Shown here one piece after another: positions 44,290 to 53,321 of a stretch of DNA of 64,000 nt (position 1 is its first letter; each line of letters starts with the position of its first letter). Source of the DNA: an uncultured Lachnospiraceae bacterium (GTDB taxonomy: Bacteria; Bacillota; Clostridia; Lachnospirales; Lachnospiraceae); assembly GCA_902780385.1 (NCBI GenBank), contig CACZFF010000005.1:62001-126000 (forward strand). Reading direction: 5' to 3'. Position numbers and translations under genes: made by a program. The notes beneath the pieces were generated by a model. That model saw nothing but the letters and a program-made list of their open reading frames with translations. It ran no database searches and was not told where the DNA came from.

Positions 44290-44311
44290 TAACTAATCTA
44301 TAAAGCAGAGT

Positions 44312-44361
44312 CCCTGCCAGGGCTGCGTCACCCAAAGACACAGCACCGGCAGGGATTTTTG
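44312..44361 (+). terminator. Intrinsic terminator after the SIMPL gene
   Basis: CCCTGCC pairs with GGCAGGG across a loop with internal pairing, followed by ATTTTTGCTTTTT. Confidence 0.75.
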
Positions 44362-44522
44362 CTTTTTCTATGGGTAGAATAGTTATATATATGATATACT
44401 TTTGTTGCGAATTATCGCAGTATTCCGCAGAAGTAACTTTTTTCTTAACAAGGAACTTTCTTCCGGCGGACACAGCAGCAATCTGCTGTATAACAAAAAA
44501 AACGAGACGGAGTTTTTAGAAA

Positions 44523-47500
44523 ATGAAAACAAATGAGATGAATCTTCTTCCTGCCGGCACGCTTGTCGCGGGCCGCTATGAAATACTAGAGGTGATAGGT
44601 CAGGGCGGCTTCGGTATTACCTATAAAGGATACGATTCGGTACTGGACGTGCCGGTTGCGATCAAGGAGTACTATCCGTCCGGTATTGCCAGCCGCTACC
44701 ATGAACAGTCCCTGGATGTACAGGTGGGAGGAAGCGAAAACAAGAAGTTCTTTGAGGAAGGAAAGAAGAAATTCCTGGAGGAAGCACGTGTACTCGCCAG
44801 ATTTTCAGAGGATCCCAACGTGGTCGGCGTACGTGATTTCTTTGAAGACAATCAGACAGTTTATATTGTGATGCAGTTTCTGCAGGGCGAGAGCCTGAAG
44901 GAATATATAGAAAAGAACGGTCTGATTTCCTTTGATGAGGCATACAATCTGCTTCGCCCGGTCATGCAGTCACTTGGCCGCATACATGCAAATGGTCTGA
45001 TCCATCGCGACATCAGTCCCTCCAATCTCATCCGCATGCGCGGAGGGAAAGTCAAACTGATCGATTTCGGAACCGCGAGAGAATTCAGCACAGACGGGGA
45101 GAAAAGTCTTTCTGTTGTACTGAAACCCGGATATGCGCCTGCAGAACAGTATCAGACCCGTGGTATGCAGGGACCGTGGACAGATGTCTATGCTCTCTGC
45201 GCTTCCATTTACAAGCTGATCACAGGCATCACTCCGGAGAATTCCCTGAATCGTATGCTGGAAGATGAACTCAGGCTGCCATCAGAATGCGGAGCCATCA
45301 TCACTGCCGCACAGGAAAAGGTCCTGATGCAGGGACTCGCTGTGCAGGAATCCGAGCGGATCCACAGCATGGAATCCCTGGAGGAAAAGTTTGACGCCGC
45401 TTCCCGGATCATCGAGGCAGTTAACAGCGATAACACGGCTGCATATGACGATGAACGCACCGTCATGGGACCTTCCGGAGTTCCTTCCTTTGAAAAGAGC
45501 CGGGTTCCTCAGAATCCTGTAAATGATCATGAGCAGATGCCTACGAACAATCAGATGTCCGCAAACGCTCATGCGCAGATGCCTGCGAACAATCAGATGT
45601 CCGCAAACAATCATCCGCAGGTGCCTGTGAATGATCAGCAGGTGCTGGCCCGGCACCCGGAAGAATCTTTCTCTGACAGACAAAAGGCCGCTTCTTTCAA
45701 GAGTCAGGAATCTCCCGCCCGCGATGAACAGTCGAATCATTATCAACCCGGAAAAGTGCAGGAGAATCCGGCACAGAGTTTGAAAAAGGGAAAAAAATCC
45801 GGGGACAGCCGCAAAAAACCTGCCGCAAAGATCGGAAAAAGAGTCATTATCATACCAATCCTCGTCTGTATACTGGCAGCTGCCTCCCTGATCGGTATTC
45901 TGCATTTAAGATCTAACGGAAGCGGAGGCGGAGAGATCAAACCCTGGATCGGGGAAAGCAAGGTCGTTGAATTTGGTTCTATCAATGAAAATGTTACTGT
46001 CAGCAAATCTATGCTGGACAGCATCGACCGCAACAAGGACGTAGCTGCACTGAGGTTTAGTAATTGCACCCTCAGTGATGAGATCATTGAAAGACTTGCC
46101 TCCATGAAGCGGATCCGCCATGTTGAGTTCTCCGGCTGTTCCGGTTTTTCCACTCTGACTCCTCTTTCAAAGATGGATCCGCTGCGTGAGTTAATCCTCA
46201 GGGGATCATACGCGGTTGAAGAAACCATTTTCGACGGTTCAGCAATGTTTACGGCAGATATTCCACAGCTGACAGATTTTAACCTGGGTAATTACCGTCT
46301 GGAAAACGGGTTTGGTTTTCTGGAGCGTTTCTCCGGACTGGAGGATCTGTATGTCTATTCACTGAAACGGGACGCGGGATCCGACCGGATTCCGGAAAAT
46401 CCGGCACTGAAATCTGCCTCGATCATTCAAACCGATCTGACAGGCGTGGATCTTTCTGCCTTCGGCAATGAACCCTATCTGGAAAATCTGACTCTGAACG
46501 AAGTTCATCTGACAGATTTGACCTTTTTAAGTACAGCATCTGCATTGATAAATGTATACGCGACAGACAATCAGCTGACAAGTCTGAACGGACTGCAGGA
46601 AAAAGAACACTTGAGCGTTCTGGATGTACATAATAATCAGATCCGGGATATTTCCGCAATAAAGGCCAGCGAAAAATTATACCAGCTTGACGCTGATAAT
46701 AACCAGATTGAAGATATTTCCGTGCTGGAGAACTGTAAGGATATCATGCTTCTTATGCTGGGCAGTAATCAGATCTCGGATATCTCCCCTCTTTCAGCAT
46801 GTACAAAGCTTTACACACTGGAATTACAGGACAACCAGATTCAGGATGTGACTCCTCTGTCCGATTGTCACGATCTGGCATACCTTAATCTGGACGGAAA
46901 CCGGATTGCTGATCTGTCCTGCTTATCGGGGTGCGAAAATCTGAAATCACTTTCTTTCAGAAGAAATTCTGTCAGCGATCTGAAGTTCTGTGAAAACATG
47001 CTTGTTCTGGAGTCACTGAGAGCTTCCGACAACCAGATCAGCACCCTTGACGGCCTCCAGAATGTCACACAGCTCAAAGAAGTCCGTCTCGACAAGAACA
47101 GAATTTCAGATATTTCACTGCTTGCCAAAAATGAAGAACACCTGGAGGTAGCAGTACTCGATGATAATCAGATATCGGATCTCACTCCCCTGGAGGCATG
47201 TACAAGTCTGAAGGGGCTGTCTGTAAATAATAATCAGCTGACGACGCTCAGAGGATTACAGGAATGCCACAAGCTCTATTTCCTTTCGGCTTCCGGCAAC
47301 AGGATCAGCGATATTTCCGCATTGGAGTCCTGTCTTGAGCTTTATATGGCAGATCTCGGTGAAAACCAGATCACAGATGTATCTGCACTCGGGGCATCGA
47401 CTGTACAGAAGATGGCACTGCTGCTCCAGAATAATAAGATAAAGGATATCTCAGCCCTTATCGGAAAGAAAGATTACGTCTATCTGTCCCTCTATAACAA

Positions 47501-47819
47501 TGAGATCACAGATATTTCAGGCATGCCTGCAATGACGAGTATCGGGATGGTCAGCAGACTTTATCTGGACTGGTGGGAGGCTCTGGATCCGGTTACTCTG
47601 TCAGAGGTTCCCTTCGGAACCCCTCGTCTGGTCGACACACCGCCTGACAGACAGGTGAACCTGCTGAACACCTTCCAGGAGACACGCAGAGAAGCCGGTA
47701 CATTCACAGGCGGCATCGAATATTTGACAAAAGAAGAGGCGGATGAAGAGATCAGACAGATCCGCTCGGATGCACGAGTTTCAGCAGGCATTGATGAGAG
47801 AGATGAAGAAACGGAATGA
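44523..47819 (+). CDS. Transmembrane Ser/Thr protein kinase with leucine-rich-repeat ectodomain
   Basis: This 1098-residue receptor-like kinase has a Hanks-type kinase domain at about residues 18-290: glycine loop GQGGFGITYKG, lysine in VAIKEYYP, HRDISPSN and KLIDFGTARE. A Gln/Asn/Pro/Met-rich linker with NNQMSAN repeats follows (about 338-370), then a basic stretch and a single membrane helix IIIPILVCILAAASLIGIL (about 441-460). Outside lie about 14 internalin-type 22-residue leucine-rich repeats (about 660-1000, NQISDISPL type) and an acidic end. The LRR part would sense a ligand and the kinase would phosphorylate Ser/Thr inside. The FHA-ABC gene starts 85 bp downstream, a likely phosphothreonine-binding partner. 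Confidence 0.92.
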   Translation: MKTNEMNLLPAGTLVAGRYEILEVIGQGGFGITYKGYDSVLDVPVAIKEYYPSGIASRYHEQSLDVQVGGSENKKFFEEGKKKFLEEARVLARFSEDPNVVGVRDFFEDNQTVYIVMQFLQGESLKEYIEKNGLISFDEAYNLLRPVMQSLGRIHANGLIHRDISPSNLIRMRGGKVKLIDFGTAREFSTDGEKSLSVVLKPGYAPAEQYQTRGMQGPWTDVYALCASIYKLITGITPENSLNRMLEDELRLPSECGAIITAAQEKVLMQGLAVQESERIHSMESLEEKFDAASRIIEAVNSDNTAAYDDERTVMGPSGVPSFEKSRVPQNPVNDHEQMPTNNQMSANAHAQMPANNQMSANNHPQVPVNDQQVLARHPEESFSDRQKAASFKSQESPARDEQSNHYQPGKVQENPAQSLKKGKKSGDSRKKPAAKIGKRVIIIPILVCILAAASLIGILHLRSNGSGGGEIKPWIGESKVVEFGSINENVTVSKSMLDSIDRNKDVAALRFSNCTLSDEIIERLASMKRIRHVEFSGCSGFSTLTPLSKMDPLRELILRGSYAVEETIFDGSAMFTADIPQLTDFNLGNYRLENGFGFLERFSGLEDLYVYSLKRDAGSDRIPENPALKSASIIQTDLTGVDLSAFGNEPYLENLTLNEVHLTDLTFLSTASALINVYATDNQLTSLNGLQEKEHLSVLDVHNNQIRDISAIKASEKLYQLDADNNQIEDISVLENCKDIMLLMLGSNQISDISPLSACTKLYTLELQDNQIQDVTPLSDCHDLAYLNLDGNRIADLSCLSGCENLKSLSFRRNSVSDLKFCENMLVLESLRASDNQISTLDGLQNVTQLKEVRLDKNRISDISLLAKNEEHLEVAVLDDNQISDLTPLEACTSLKGLSVNNNQLTTLRGLQECHKLYFLSASGNRISDISALESCLELYMADLGENQITDVSALGASTVQKMALLLQNNKIKDISALIGKKDYVYLSLYNNEITDISGMPAMTSIGMVSRLYLDWWEALDPVTLSEVPFGTPRLVDTPPDRQVNLLNTFQETRREAGTFTGGIEYLTKEEADEEIRQIRSDARVSAGIDERDEETE

Positions 47820-47904
47820 TCGTCACAGTACCCTTCCTGTAAAGGATGTGTACATGCAGTAATAACCCATACATGTTTGTGAGGGGGAGGTCACAATCAC
47901 AACT

Positions 47905-49497
47905 ATGCTTGAAGAAACTATTTTATTTCAGCAGAAAGACAATACACCGCATCTGACCGTGATCAGCGGACACGAACTTCACACATACATACTGCAAGGC
48001 GAGCAGACCCTCGGCCGGGTCTCACGCAGCAGCAAGCCTGATCTTCCGATCCACTCAGGTGTTGCTTCACGGAAGCACGGTCTTTTTACCACGAATGCCG
48101 CAGGATGCCGATATACTGATGCAGGGAGTATGAACGGAACGATCTGCTGCGGGACCATGCTCGCAGCCGGAGAAGGGAAAACCCTGTCCGACGGAGATAT
48201 CCTGCGGATCCATGGAAAGCAGGATCCGAATGCGGACATGGATGTGATTCTGATCTATTCGACGGCGCCGCAAGAGAATCGGACCTGGAGACGGATCTCG
48301 CTTGCAGATGCCGCAGAAGTCGTCATAGGCAGAAATGAGCGGCTTCGCCTGCGCGAAGAAAGCGTCTCCAGGCGGCATGCTTCCCTGTTTCGTGCCCAAA
48401 AAGGCTGGGCACTTTTGGACCACGGCAGTCTGAATGGCGTATACCTCAATGCGGCCCGCATTGAAGAGCCGGTATATCTTCAGAAAAACGACGTGATCAG
48501 GATTGCAGATTATTATTTCGTGTTTCTGGAAGATGAACTGCTCTGCTATGTAGATTGCTATGCAGATGCAGATATACCGAAAAAAGCTGAATCTGATTCC
48601 GTCACGGCCGAACTGGACGACGCCAAAGAAGTCAAACCTTCCATACCTGCCATACCACAAAACAAAGGGGCGGCTGATGACAGCCGTGAAGGCCTCTCTG
48701 TCTGGATTGAAGAGCGAAATGTCTGGCTGCGCGCTAAAAAGAAGACCCTTCTCAGGGATATCCGGCTGAATATTCTGCCCGGCAGCATGGTCTTGATCCT
48801 GGGCGGATCCGGTGCCGGAAAGACCACCTTCATGAATGCCGTCATGGGATATGAACCCGCGGAAGGTGAGATCCGCTATAAAGGAACGGATATCTACCAG
48901 GAATATGAACGCATGAAATATGAGATCGGTTATGTTCCTCAGGAAGATCTTCTGCGCAAGAACGATTCCGTCTATGATACACTGCTCAATGCAGCCAAGA
49001 TGCGGCTTCCGGTCATGGAAAAAGAAGAATATGACAGACATGTCGAAGAGACACTGCACATGCTCGGGCTTGAACGTCTGCGGGACGCACTTGTCGTAAA
49101 ACTCAGCGGAGGACAGAGAAAACGGCTCAGCATTGCTGTGGAATATGTCGGAAATCCTTCTCTGTTTTTCCTCGACGAACCGGACTCCGGTCTGGATGGG
49201 ACCATGGCTCGTCAGCTGTGGGAAAATCTGCGCTCAATTGCGGATCAGGGCAAGATCGTCATGGTCATCTCCCATAGCCCTGACCGCGCATTCAAATTAT
49301 TTGACAAAATAATTGTGCTCGCAAAGAACAGCGAAGAGGAAGGGCGCCTGGTCTATTACGGTTCTCCTAAAGACGCATGTGCCTTTTTTGAAGTTGATGA
49401 TCTGGAAGGGATCATGCGGCGAATCAATTATACGGAAGAAGGCGGAGAAGGACTGGCGGATTACTATATTGACAAGTACAAAAACCTATCTTTATAA
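47905..49497 (+). CDS. ABC transporter ATPase with two N-terminal FHA domains
   Basis: This 530-residue protein has FHA domains at about residues 30-95 (LGRVSRSSKPDLPIHSGVASRKH) and 140-205 (IGRNERLRLREESVSRRHAS, then GSLNGVYLN). Both keep the Arg, Ser and His that read phosphothreonine. Residues about 275-500 are an ABCG-like ATPase: Walker A GGSGAGKTTF (about 302), a Q-loop region YVPQEDLL, signature KLSGGQRKRLSI (about 400) and Walker B LFFLDEPDSGLDG. It would power the permease encoded next. The layout matches the soluble half of mycobacterial Rv1747. GGGGAGG lies 14 bp before the ATG, which is longer than usual. Confidence 0.92.
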   Translation: MLEETILFQQKDNTPHLTVISGHELHTYILQGEQTLGRVSRSSKPDLPIHSGVASRKHGLFTTNAAGCRYTDAGSMNGTICCGTMLAAGEGKTLSDGDILRIHGKQDPNADMDVILIYSTAPQENRTWRRISLADAAEVVIGRNERLRLREESVSRRHASLFRAQKGWALLDHGSLNGVYLNAARIEEPVYLQKNDVIRIADYYFVFLEDELLCYVDCYADADIPKKAESDSVTAELDDAKEVKPSIPAIPQNKGAADDSREGLSVWIEERNVWLRAKKKTLLRDIRLNILPGSMVLILGGSGAGKTTFMNAVMGYEPAEGEIRYKGTDIYQEYERMKYEIGYVPQEDLLRKNDSVYDTLLNAAKMRLPVMEKEEYDRHVEETLHMLGLERLRDALVVKLSGGQRKRLSIAVEYVGNPSLFFLDEPDSGLDGTMARQLWENLRSIADQGKIVMVISHSPDRAFKLFDKIIVLAKNSEEEGRLVYYGSPKDACAFFEVDDLEGIMRRINYTEEGGEGLADYYIDKYKNLSL

Positions 49498-49539
49498 GTG
49501 ATGCATCCAATACCGCAGGCAAAAAAGGAGCGTATTAAA

Positions 49540-50355
49540 ATGGCAGAACGAAGAATCTCCGGCCAGGGACAGATCGCCGTTTATCTCGGTAAATGTTTCC
49601 GTCTGTTTCGAAATGAAAAACAGTGGAAAAACTTTCTGTCTTCATTCATCATTATCGTGATCATCTCCATGGTAACCGGACCGGACATGTTCAATACATA
49701 CGATGCAACAAATAAAGGAGCCTTTGCGGTAATATCCGCCTGCATCTGGTCAGGACTTTTTAATTCGATCCAGTCAATCTGCAGGGAAAGGGCGATCATA
49801 AAAAGAGAATACCGGACCGGTCTGCGCATCTCCTCTTATATTCTGGCGCATGTGATTTATGAAATGTTCCTCTGTGCGGGAGAATCTCTGATCGTGCTGA
49901 TTGTCGTCCTTGTTCGCAACCATTCCCACCTTCCTCCCAGCGGACTGGTGCTGCCGATGTTTATTGAGCTGTATCTGACCATTTTTCTGACGACTTTCTG
50001 TGCAGATATGATCGCAATGCTGGTCTCTTGTATCGTCAGGAATGAGATGTCTGCCATGATGATCATGCCGTTTATCCTTGTGGTACAGCTGGTCATGGCC
50101 GGTGTCGTATTTGATCTGACAGGAATAACTGAATTAATCTCCTATTTGACTGCCAGCCGCTGGGGAGTCCAGGCGATCATCTCTATCGCCCGTACAAATT
50201 CATCCGTCAACTTACAGGCAGAATGGTTGGCTAATGCCGGTGAGGGCGGTGCAGGCATGCTGATGAAGGACTGGCTATTACTCCTGGTTTTCTGCCTGAT
50301 CTACATTATAGCGGCTATCATAATGCTCGGATTTGTTGATAAAGATGAGCGCTGA
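49540..50355 (+). CDS. ABC-2 type permease partner of the FHA-ATPase
   Basis: This 271-residue membrane protein starts at ATG 49540 after AAAAAAGGAG; an upstream in-frame ATG touching the previous stop lacks a site. About six membrane segments are visible, in the ABCG/ABC-2 order, with a short coupling helix region ERAIIKREYRTGLRISSYILAHV and a final WLLLLVFCLIYIIAAIIMLGF. It directly follows the ATPase gene, so the two form one exporter. A strong terminator follows. The substrate is unknown; a lipid or glycolipid is possible by analogy with Rv1747. Confidence 0.9.
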   Translation: MAERRISGQGQIAVYLGKCFRLFRNEKQWKNFLSSFIIIVIISMVTGPDMFNTYDATNKGAFAVISACIWSGLFNSIQSICRERAIIKREYRTGLRISSYILAHVIYEMFLCAGESLIVLIVVLVRNHSHLPPSGLVLPMFIELYLTIFLTTFCADMIAMLVSCIVRNEMSAMMIMPFILVVQLVMAGVVFDLTGITELISYLTASRWGVQAIISIARTNSSVNLQAEWLANAGEGGAGMLMKDWLLLLVFCLIYIIAAIIMLGFVDKDER

Positions 50356-50431
50356 TAAATATTTATTGACGAAGATAAGTGAAGTCAAGACAAATCAGGC
50401 AACGACAGACAAAATAAGTAAAGACAAAGGA

Positions 50432-50485
50432 AGCCTCTGTCCCGTAAGCGTTGTTGAACACGATGCCGGACAGAGGCTCTTTTTA
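50432..50485 (+). terminator. Intrinsic terminator of the kinase-ABC operon
   Basis: AGCCTCTGTCC and GGACAGAGGCT form an 11-bp stem, then CTTTTT. The rest of the gap to 50660 holds a small GTGGGC/GCCCAC hairpin and a TATAAT (50601-50606) without a clear -35. Confidence 0.85.
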
Positions 50486-50660
50486 ATACTTCGTAATCTT
50501 AAACCTTGTTTCTTTTCACTTTTTCTACTATTACTCTTCTATCCTCTTCTGATTGTTTTATAGTGGGCTCCGTGCCCACCGTTTCCTGCCTCTGTTTTAG
50601 TATAATGACCTTTGAAAAGCATCAGTAAAGACAATACTGTCGATCAACAGGAGGATGGAA

Positions 50661-53321
50661 ATGAAAAACCACAAAAAGAAAAGAATAAAGATTATGGCAA
50701 TAATTCTATCGACAATCATCACTACAGTCTCATTATCCGGATCTGTTTTCGGAGCACAGACTTCTACAGATTCTGAAGAACCTGTTGCAGTTAAGTCAGA
50801 GGAAATATTTGAAGAGTCTGTAGAGAGTGGAGAATCCAGAAGTTTAGAAACCGTCGATGAAGAATACAATACTGAGGAGATAGACCCTGATGCTTCAGAA
50901 ATGGAGGAAAGTGGTTCTGAGCCAGATTCAGATTCTGATACAGTTTTAGATTCTGATAAAAATATAGGGGCTGAAGAAAAATCTGATTCCACAGAAACAA
51001 TTGAATCCATGGATGATGATAATTTTACTGAAGCTGAACAGCCCCCTGCAGGAAGATCTACAGAAACGACTGAATCTGCTTCCCAGGGACAAACACATCA
51101 AATCCCATCATCAGATGAAGGAATAGCAGATTCGAAGAATTATAATGGTGAATCCTATGATGATGCAGTAGAGGAAACTATAGATGTTCCTAATACTCCA
51201 CCTGCAGATGAAACAGTCACAACAGATTCTCAAAATGCGATTTCTCCTGATTTTGTCATCGAGGACGGTATACTGGTCCAATATATAGGCAAAGATGAAG
51301 TGATAACTGTTCCCCAAGGGATAACAGGAATAGCTGCTGGTGCTTTTCGCAACTGCCGTACAGCCACGAATATCCTTTTGCAGGATGGCATAACCTATAT
51401 CGGTGATAATGCATTTGAAGATTGTACCAGGCTATATTCAATCTGGCTTCCGCAAAGCATAACCAAGATTGGAAGAGAAGCGTTTTTAAGATGCAACAGC
51501 CTGGAACTAATCAATCTCCCGGACAGTATAGAAGAGATTGGTTACCATGCTTTTTATGGATGCATCATGTGCACGATTTATTGTTCCTCCGATGCAAGAT
51601 ATATAATTAATTACGCATATGAAAATGGTATTTCATATTATGGCAAGTACCCGTTTACAATTTCAGGTAAAAAGCTGATATCTTATAACCGAAGCGACGG
51701 CAGTGTTGAAGTGCCGGATGATGTGAAGGTGATAGGTACGGGCGCTTTTTCAAAATGTCCTGGAATAACGGATGTCAAATTACCCGCCTCTGTTACCATT
51801 ATTGAAGATGGAGCTTTTTTAGGTTGCCGCAAGCTGGAACGTATCACGTTACCCGGAGTAAAAGAAATCGGAGAGTCTGCTTTTCAAAAATGTTCTGCTT
51901 TAAAAAGTATTACAATACCAGAGGACGTAGCAGCTATTAAAAACAACACATTCAATTATTGTTACAAGTTATCGAGTATTTATCTACCAACGAGTATAAA
52001 AAGCATTGGACAAAGAGCTTTTTTCAGATGCTCGAACTTAAAAAGCATTAGACTGCCAAACACTGTGACACAGATCTCAGATGAAGCATTTGAAAGCAGT
52101 GGACTTGAGAGTATCTCAATTCCTTCTTCCTTGAAAGAAATAGGCAACGGTGCTTTTTCAAACTGTACAGAACTGAAAAATGTAACAATACCAGCGGGCG
52201 TGACTACAATAGCAAAATATGCATTCTCCGGATGCAATAGTCTGAGTAATATTGAACTGCCAACGGGGATGAACAGCATTGGGACAAGAGCGTTCAACAA
52301 CTGCTCCAGTCTGACAAGTATTACTATTCCTGCAAGTGTATCATTTATAGGTGACTATGCCTTTAGCAAAACACCGAATGTTGTTATTCACTGCCCAGCA
52401 AGCGCCAAATATGTTATTGAATATGCAGAGAAATGGAATATTCCCTATGAAACGGATTCAGCCCTTGTTGAAAAAATCACTCTTAACAAAAAATCTGCAA
52501 CAGTAAATATTGGTAAATCTATTTCTCTGAAGGCAACTGTTTTGCCTGATTATGCGACTGACAGGGCCGTTACCTGGATCAGTTCCAATGAAAAGATTGC
52601 AAAAGTGAATTCTGTTGGAACTGTCACAGGCGTTGCAAAAGGAAGTGCAACGATTACCGCAACAGCCAGGGATGGCTCCGGAGTTACGGCTGCTTGTACC
52701 ATAACAATAGTCCCCACTATGAAAAAGCCCGGAAACTGTCACTTTGCAAAATGGAACAATGTAAAATACAGCAGCTGTCAGATTGTCTGGAATAAAGTTG
52801 ATAATGCAGAGGGTTACCAAACCCTTCTCTCATGGACAGATGGAAGCCATGCAAGCACGACCATAGTCAAGTCCAATATTCTATATAGGAACTGTACTGT
52901 TGCGGTCAACCATGTCAGTCAAATGAAGGTCAGGGCATTTTACACCTTGAATGGTGAGCGTATCTATAGCCCTTGGTCAAATGTTGAATACATTACACCT
53001 TCTCCGTCAAAACTGACCTGCAAAAATCCAAGTACCGGTGATAATCTAAAGGAAAAGATCTCTTGGAATATCATCTACGGGTGCAATGGCTATAATGTAT
53101 TTATTACAACAAACCCGAATGGAAATTGGTACTGGAATCAGTCAACACCTGAATATGCAACTGAGACTAATGCAGTTATTCAAAAATACAGAGGTTCCAA
53201 GCTCAAACGAAATACAAGGTATTACGTCCGTATCGTTACAAGACGTAAACGAAATGGTGTTTTCTGCACGGTTCCGATGCCGTCAAGCAGCACATATGTC
53301 GGATCCTTTATCATCAAATAA
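50661..53321 (+). CDS. Secreted BspA-type leucine-rich-repeat protein with Big_2 domain
   Basis: This 886-residue protein starts at ATG 50661 with AGGAGG 6 bp upstream. A signal peptide (about residues 1-33, basic start then ILSTIITTVSLSGSVFGA) is followed by a long Ser/Glu/Asp-rich stretch to about residue 195. BspA-like LRR_5 repeats (about 205-600, units like ITIPASVSFIGDYAFS) follow, then one bacterial Ig-like Big_2 domain (about 603-685) and two fibronectin-like segments to the end. No LPXTG or choline-binding anchor is visible. BspA-type proteins bind host or matrix proteins. Base composition is clearly richer in A+T than the neighbours, suggesting recent transfer. Confidence 0.9.
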   Translation: MKNHKKKRIKIMAIILSTIITTVSLSGSVFGAQTSTDSEEPVAVKSEEIFEESVESGESRSLETVDEEYNTEEIDPDASEMEESGSEPDSDSDTVLDSDKNIGAEEKSDSTETIESMDDDNFTEAEQPPAGRSTETTESASQGQTHQIPSSDEGIADSKNYNGESYDDAVEETIDVPNTPPADETVTTDSQNAISPDFVIEDGILVQYIGKDEVITVPQGITGIAAGAFRNCRTATNILLQDGITYIGDNAFEDCTRLYSIWLPQSITKIGREAFLRCNSLELINLPDSIEEIGYHAFYGCIMCTIYCSSDARYIINYAYENGISYYGKYPFTISGKKLISYNRSDGSVEVPDDVKVIGTGAFSKCPGITDVKLPASVTIIEDGAFLGCRKLERITLPGVKEIGESAFQKCSALKSITIPEDVAAIKNNTFNYCYKLSSIYLPTSIKSIGQRAFFRCSNLKSIRLPNTVTQISDEAFESSGLESISIPSSLKEIGNGAFSNCTELKNVTIPAGVTTIAKYAFSGCNSLSNIELPTGMNSIGTRAFNNCSSLTSITIPASVSFIGDYAFSKTPNVVIHCPASAKYVIEYAEKWNIPYETDSALVEKITLNKKSATVNIGKSISLKATVLPDYATDRAVTWISSNEKIAKVNSVGTVTGVAKGSATITATARDGSGVTAACTITIVPTMKKPGNCHFAKWNNVKYSSCQIVWNKVDNAEGYQTLLSWTDGSHASTTIVKSNILYRNCTVAVNHVSQMKVRAFYTLNGERIYSPWSNVEYITPSPSKLTCKNPSTGDNLKEKISWNIIYGCNGYNVFITTNPNGNWYWNQSTPEYATETNAVIQKYRGSKLKRNTRYYVRIVTRRKRNGVFCTVPMPSSSTYVGSFIIK

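Follow-up and report, generated by a model that had tools for sequence, protein, structure and literature searches.

A three-gene LRR receptor kinase, FHA-FHA ATPase and permease unit in an uncultured Lachnospiraceae bacterium: a probable variant of the PknF-Rv1747 kind of exporter

The window analysed here is a stretch of 64,000 nucleotides from an uncultured Lachnospiraceae bacterium (contig CACZFF010000005.1, positions 62,001 to 126,000), in which three co-directional open reading frames (ORFs) at 44523-50355 encode a receptor-type kinase with leucine-rich repeats (LRRs), an ATP-binding cassette (ABC) ATPase preceded by two FHA domains and an ABC-2 permease. In our view, the unit is most plausibly a new version of the kinase-FHA-ABC exporter exemplified by PknF-Rv1747, marked by a kinase of PpkA-like type, by sensors that are exchangeable and by a candidate phospho-switch in the ATPase tail. 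We consider it probable (roughly 0.62) that the three genes make up one operon for a phosphorylation-controlled exporter, in which the LRR kinase would act on an ABCG-type pump through the FHA domains. The three-gene unit had been proposed in a preliminary description of this DNA, and the ORFs, their Pfam matches and their common strand bear it out.

Homologous loci, cited here by number, were taken from 117 relatives (62 of the same genus, the bacterium itself included), from one contig scan (seven loci, with L021-L025 from close relatives), from a class sample of 391 genomes (17 with the permease at an E value of 1e-20 or better) and from an order sample of 392 genomes (27 with the permease). 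Both samples include the bacterium itself, and some genomes are shared between them. The neighbourhoods examined are those of the best matches. Loci were retained when the ATPase had a permease match fused to it or no more than 600 nt downstream, a rule that removes, among others, L074, which lies at the end of its contig; L025 was excluded because it seems to be the contig of L080 again, equal in length and with the 827-residue gene in common, and L168, with two ATPases on a single contig, was counted twice. With the window, the retained set comprises 47 FHA-bearing and 48 FHA-less loci, one of which (L081) has its start cut and was dropped, leaving 47 for the distance contrast.

A kinase gene lies within 6 kb of the ATPase and permease genes in 26 of the 47 FHA-bearing loci and in none of the 47 FHA-less loci. 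The same contrast is seen where both 6 kb flanks are available (15/24 versus 0/27), within the genus (7/15 versus 0/34) and outside it (19/32 versus 0/13). A kinase of some type stands directly upstream in 11/47 FHA-bearing loci, the window among them, versus 0/47; anywhere in the available flank, kinases are found in 27/47 FHA-bearing loci and in two of the 48 FHA-less loci (L098 and L106). PP2C phosphatase genes are present in the flanks of 14/47 versus 0/47, the two in L024 having been checked by Pfam. In nearly all FHA-less ATPases (44/48) the N-terminal region contains between one and five hydrophobic segments, the exceptions being L081, L176 and L178, which have short N-termini, and L086, which falls below the cut; no Pfam family is recognized in the N-terminal regions of the five FHA-less ATPases scanned. 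Since most FHA-less homologues carry this hydrophobic N-terminus and have no kinase within 6 kb, kinase linkage tracks the FHA module and not the pump. The upstream kinases themselves belong to at least two far-apart groups, one PpkA-like with an HRD[IV]SP motif and the other (L145, L166 and L179) on a 100/100 branch of a tree that carries a long-branch warning, and their position directly upstream of the same transporter family argues for repeated pairing. Clustering of FHA genes with kinases and phosphatases is described for M. tuberculosis in the accessible text of PMC1262709.

The complete order of kinase-LRR, FHA-FHA-ATPase and permease is found in the window, in L022 (a Clostridia metagenome-assembled genome, MAG), in L023 (a Eubacterium sp. 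MAG), in L072 and in L073, and L070 shows the same order with its kinase domain lost at a contig end. A kinase-LRR gene is directly upstream in 5/47 FHA-bearing loci, with a sixth cut by the contig end. The triad looks rare; among the loci examined in the genus (62 genomes), it occurs in three genomes and the one with the cut copy. Between distant sets of the triad the identities are 43-52% for the kinase domain, 53-61% for the nucleotide-binding domain (NBD) and 40-46% for the permease, with 25-33% for the FHA part and 20-32% for the ectodomain. The preliminary description had named conserved adjacency in Clostridia as its check, and kinases do stand beside FHA-ABC genes in several genera, with the three-gene order present in relatives. 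It had also taken the split permease as a departure from the mycobacterial case. The permease is indeed a separate gene here, but this is common in relatives: among 41 double-FHA loci the permease is fused in 24 and split in 17. One fused example from the same genus (L080, 8883-11366) encodes an FHA-FHA-ABC-permease protein of 827 amino acids (aa) with the layout of Rv1747 and has no kinase in the available flank.

The first gene encodes a Hanks kinase with Pfam matches to Pkinase (residues 19-240, E 2e-34) and LRR_4 (E 2e-45). Its catalytic residues are intact (G-loop 26-31, Lys48, Asp163 of HRD, Asn168 and Asp181 of DFG), and a single hydrophobic segment, C-terminal to the kinase domain, starts at about residue 433. 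The one membrane helix proposed earlier agrees with this, the topology being judged from hydrophobicity alone, and the LRR part probably faces the outside. "About 14" LRRs had been counted; the array is present, but it consists of 16 contiguous repeats of 22-23 residues (653-1006) plus an isolated match at 554, 17 in total, compared with a mean of 3.1 and a maximum of eight repeat matches in 300 shuffles of the ectodomain. Among solved structures the best sequence match of the ectodomain is internalin A (InlA; E 3e-52), and its AlphaFold model (mean predicted local distance difference test, pLDDT, of 91) matches a Roco LRR, internalin A and, lower down, plant receptor-kinase ectodomains. Among solved kinases, the kinase domain is closest to PpkA (PDB entry 5hnv; 174 bits, E 4e-50), followed by StkP with 88 bits. 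Pfam gives no PASTA match in this kinase.

The second gene product matches FHA (E 3e-21, two stretches) and ABC_tran (E 7e-28). As previously suggested, both FHA domains precede the ATPase and keep the residues that read phosphothreonine (the GR, SxxH and SxNG elements), namely Arg38, Ser55, His58 and Asn77 in the first and Arg143, Ser155, His158 and Asn177 in the second. FHA2 has its best solved match in an Rv1747 FHA domain (E 7e-6), followed by GarA and OdhI; for FHA1 alone Rv1747 is again first but weak (E 0.003). The model of the ATPase (mean pLDDT 80.5, predicted template modelling score 0.51) is β-rich to residue 217, with the NBD thereafter. Disorder is confined to residues 1-11 (the first ten having a mean pLDDT of 33) and 220-260. 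The structural matches listed for this model are ABC NBDs, LptB being the best with ABCG5 and ABCG25 close behind. The third gene is an ABC-2 permease, as had been claimed, by its match to ABC2_membrane (E 5e-17); the later of its two candidate starts, preceded by AGGAG, is possibly the true one. A profile built from 13 of the permeases matches ABCG2 (E 1.1e-6), the transmembrane domain (TMD) being homologous to that of ABCG proteins. The predicted direction of transport is export rather than import.

The ATPase linker had been put forward as the region to search for phosphorylation. We do not favour this placement: only 34 aa separate the two FHA profile matches, the model shows no disorder between them, and an acceptor-like threonine is conserved in the N-terminal tail instead. 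The tails of 14 aligned split FHA-ATPases have the consensus [D/E]-E-T-[V/I]-L-[Y/F]. A threonine falls within residues 2-8 in 11 of the 14 compared with 3.7 expected from the composition of each protein (p 2e-4, in a test that is post hoc and made among related sequences). FHA recognition discriminates at the +3 position, and the aromatic residue at +3 of the tail threonine would fit such recognition. The conserved threonine suggests a tail phospho-switch like that of GarA and OdhI. The motif T[VI]x[hydrophobic] also occurs in the tails of 8/24 fused ATPases; these matches were discarded, as by eye six of the eight fall in strand 1 of the FHA domain.

The LRR sensor had been regarded as a distinguishing part of the unit. 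It is present here, but it is not constant, as other kinases beside FHA-ABC genes bear other domains. Ten kinases from FHA-ABC loci outside the LRR set were scanned with Pfam. Single kinases carry a C-type lectin domain (L117), NPCBM (L167), PDZ (L175) or DUF6273 (L179), those of L142 and L144 carry F5/8 type C (discoidin)/NADase-translocation domains, and the second kinase of L024 carries four PASTA domains; the kinases of L142, L144 and L024 are near the FHA-ABC gene and not directly upstream. Nothing besides the kinase domain exceeds the Pfam cut-off in the kinases of L145 and L166. Four of the six named kinds of extracellular domain are usually ligand- or glycan-binding, which supports, without proving, a sensor role for the LRRs. 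Exchange of sensors within the triads was considered as a possibility: kinase-domain scores place L022 and L023 nearest to the window, whereas LRR scores place L072 and L073 nearest (L070 aside). However, the kinase tree neither shows nor rejects a single origin of the LRR kinases, with three changes on the best tree and at least one forced. According to the available part of PMC1262709, attention had been drawn in 2005 to prokaryotic kinases that carry LRRs in P. aeruginosa and a solute-binding domain in S. coelicolor.

We note separately two receptor kinases beside FHA-ABC genes (L024, 4795-6756; L137, 12347-14317) with an extracellular part that resembles the solute-binding protein of ABC importers. 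For the first kinase of L024 the likeness is a sub-threshold match to SBP_bac_8, and for L137 it is likeness to L024. The L024 gene run also holds two PP2C genes, an FHA protein and the PASTA kinase.

From the parts, their intact catalytic and phosphothreonine-binding residues, their linkage and its conservation, all read from the sequence, we infer a route from signal to pump. An outside ligand would bind the internalin-like ectodomain and thereby alter the activity of the cytoplasmic kinase, which would phosphorylate its own threonines, those of the ATPase's disordered N-terminal tail (Thr5) or both. The two FHA domains would bind those phosphothreonines either in cis, the tail on its own FHA domain, or in trans, on a neighbouring ATPase or on the kinase, and this binding would switch or cluster the ABCG-type pump, both the direction of control and the substrate being conjectural.

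Apart from the post hoc nature of the tail test, several observations weigh against this reading. No kinase is present in the available flank of 20/47 FHA-bearing loci, although several of these contigs are short and one of the loci, L070, is cut exactly where the kinase domain would lie. The NBD tree shows just two changes in FHA presence and 14 in kinase presence; the contrast thus holds few independent events, Fisher p values overstate their independence (that of 1.2e-10 for the kinase contrast is not relied on), and an independent-pairs test of the FHA-kinase linkage has two pairs and no power. Three of the 14 split ATPases lack a threonine in residues 2-8 (L071, L024 and L058, a paralogue in the same genome), although the alignment of the longer L058 tail places a threonine in the conserved column. 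The L022 kinase has three hydrophobic segments, not one. The motif T[VI]x[hydrophobic], seen by eye in the linkers of the L022, L078 and window kinases, was considered as an FHA ligand and rejected, being equally frequent in the linkers of kinases near FHA-ABC genes (6/28) and far from them (3/14). Finally, the genome of the bacterium holds 17 Pkinase matches.

This abundance of kinases, together with 11 FHA matches in the same genome, bears on an alternative in which the phosphothreonines that the FHA domains recognize come from other cellular kinases, such as those encoded by a type VII secretion-like island (contig C1), the LRR kinase being one of several inputs or insulated. The kinase-free loci just mentioned would fit, as would the binding of another phosphoprotein, Rv2623, to FHA-I of Rv1747, as given in the accessible text of PMC5549992. 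However, the kinase comes first in a unit bounded by terminator-like hairpins, and kinases directly upstream are confined to the FHA-bearing loci of our contrast; we regard this alternative as unlikely, if by no means negligible. Somewhat less likely still is that the FHA pair localizes or clusters the transporter, as in condensates of Rv1747, rather than gating it on and off. The portion of PMC9312465 available to us describes a disordered linker between the Rv1747 FHA domains and readier condensation of the N-terminal part once phosphorylated by PknF, but that linker has no counterpart in the short and ordered stretch found here. An anti-phage kinase system is highly improbable: gene by gene, PADLOC matches the kinase to PD-T4-6 (9e-46) and mad6 (6e-45), but the matched stretches (the best 25 of 34 matches) lie within residues 7-467, which span the kinase domain and its linker and would be matched in any Hanks kinase; the ATPase has weak matches to mad3 and mad8 that fall in its NBD (280-490), and the permease has none. 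That three unrelated genes are neighbours by chance in a kinase-rich genome, with another LRR-type protein directly downstream, is equally improbable and already contradicted by the gene order conserved at the identities given above.

The phosphorylation-controlled exporter that we prefer may be compared with several known systems. The mycobacterial comparison made in the preliminary description holds for the FHA domains, both of which have Rv1747 (PDB entries 6ccd and 6cah) as their best solved match, and for the arrangement, in which the gene of a receptor Ser/Thr kinase precedes that of a protein with two FHA domains ahead of its ABC NBD; it does not hold for the kinase domain, which is far nearer to PpkA. 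According to the accessible text of PMC3908365, pknF and Rv1747 form one operon, with the kinase acting as a positive modulator of the transporter. The unit differs from this pair in its separate permease, where Rv1747-type proteins have NBD and TMD in one polypeptide, in its PpkA-like kinase domain, LRR ectodomain and N-terminal tail threonine motif, and in its short inter-FHA stretch without a disordered linker. The acceptor residues of Rv1747 lie in that linker.

The unit resembles the PpkA-PppA-Fha control of type VI secretion (treated in the part of PMC5995506 available) in its kinase domain, in the principle of a kinase and an FHA reader acting on an export machine, and in the presence of PP2C in some relatives such as L024. 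It differs in having an ABCG-type pump as output, an FHA pair fused to the ATPase and no PP2C in the three-gene unit; no type VI secretion genes are among the four neighbours scanned with Pfam, and no search was aimed at them. GarA is characterized by an N-terminal tail motif and self-inhibition. The likeness to GarA and OdhI lies in a tail threonine before an FHA domain and in the match of FHA2 to their structures, one of which is labelled Rv1827 pThr 22; here, however, one protein combines the FHA pair with an ABC ATPase, and self-binding is putative. The 22-residue LRRs are shared with internalins (InlA and others), which are free-standing surface proteins, whereas the present array is the ectodomain of a membrane kinase. 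ABCG exporters (ABCG2, ABCG25) resemble the permease profile and the NBD model, but the window has NBD and TMD in separate genes and FHA domains in front. Among the literature matches listed, no title or opening of an abstract describes the triad in Clostridia, and PMC6213207 and PMC3482391 contribute nothing specific; their coverage leaves out most subscription papers and all preprints, and we therefore make no claim that it is absent from print.

The features of the locus are collected in Table 1. All three ORFs lie between two terminator-like hairpins. The terminator reported earlier after the permease is found (-29.7 kcal/mol, z -5.49); the second, upstream of the unit, had gone unmentioned (-38.9 kcal/mol, z -8.24). 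For each, none of 200 shuffles was as good, and a T-rich stretch follows. A consensus scan gave seven terminator-like sites compared with 5.3 expected, neither flanking hairpin being among them because the scan permits loops of at most 8. In the interval from the upstream hairpin to the start of the kinase gene, the promoter scan showed no σ70-like match on the + strand, and the region is not enriched in promoter-like sites (eight versus 9.0 in shuffles). A single transcript is predicted for the three genes.

Table 1. Coordinates of the unit and its boundaries in the window.
Feature	Coordinates	Strand	Details
Terminator-like hairpin 5' of the unit, after a SIMPL-family gene	44302..44365	+	Fold and shuffles
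Receptor-type kinase-LRR gene	44523..47819	+	1098 aa; PpkA-like kinase domain 19-about 281, low-complexity linker, hydrophobic segment, LRR 653-1006
FHA-FHA ATPase gene	47905..49497	+	530 aa; Thr5 tail, FHA about 36-106 and 140-207, disordered 220-260, NBD about 265-505
Candidate acceptor-like tail motif LEETILF (ATPase residues 2-8, Thr5)	47908..47928	+	Conserved tail Thr; disordered in model
ABC-2 permease gene, ABCG type	49498..50355	+	285 aa from GTG 49498, or 271 aa from ATG 49540
Terminator-like hairpin closing the unit	50426..50483	+	Fold and shuffles

The four neighbouring proteins scanned with Pfam are of the SIMPL, GH32, BspA-type LRR and aminotransferase families. The third of these, an 888-aa surface protein with LRR_5 and Big_2 (50655-53321), lies directly 3' of the closing hairpin; it was considered as a part of the system and rejected, being behind the terminator and absent from the 5 kb 3' of the L070 copy.

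Two other loci of the same genome deserve mention. The type VII secretion-like island (L058-L061, contig C1, about 7.5-78 kb) encodes a 1624-aa FtsK/SpoIIIE protein with FHA, a WXG100 protein, vWA, PP2C, several kinases and FHA proteins, together with a second FHA-FHA-ATPase and permease, the paralogue without a threonine in residues 2-8 of its called start. On contig C41 (L062, about 6.5-9 kb) there is an FHA-less exporter paralogue with an ATPase frame broken by a stop (ORFs of 371 and 128 aa), which is either a pseudogene or an assembly error. Elsewhere, in FHA-less exporters (L082-L116 and L140-L163), the FHA pair is replaced by a hydrophobic N-terminal module that bears a WWA[FL]IPG-like motif.

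We put forward, tentatively and with more doubt than confidence, that these loci represent a modular signalling class of Clostridia. Swappable kinase sensors (LRR, lectin, NPCBM, discoidin and PASTA) would directly control an ABCG-type exporter through phosphorylation of the ATPase tail, read by its own FHA pair, and sister exporters would carry the membrane-embedded module instead, with no kinase link.

The best-studied kinase-FHA-ABC pump known to us is that of M. tuberculosis, a slow-growing and dangerous organism. Its substrate is still unproven in the accessible text of PMC5549992, where export of phosphatidylinositol mannosides (PIMs) is proposed. The compact three-gene version in gut- and rumen-type Clostridia, with Thr5 as a candidate acceptor, natural sensor swaps and a natural control group in the FHA-less exporters, makes kinase gating of an exporter through FHA domains directly testable. 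Given that kinases are repeatedly found beside such pumps in relatives, an outside signal may switch the pump.

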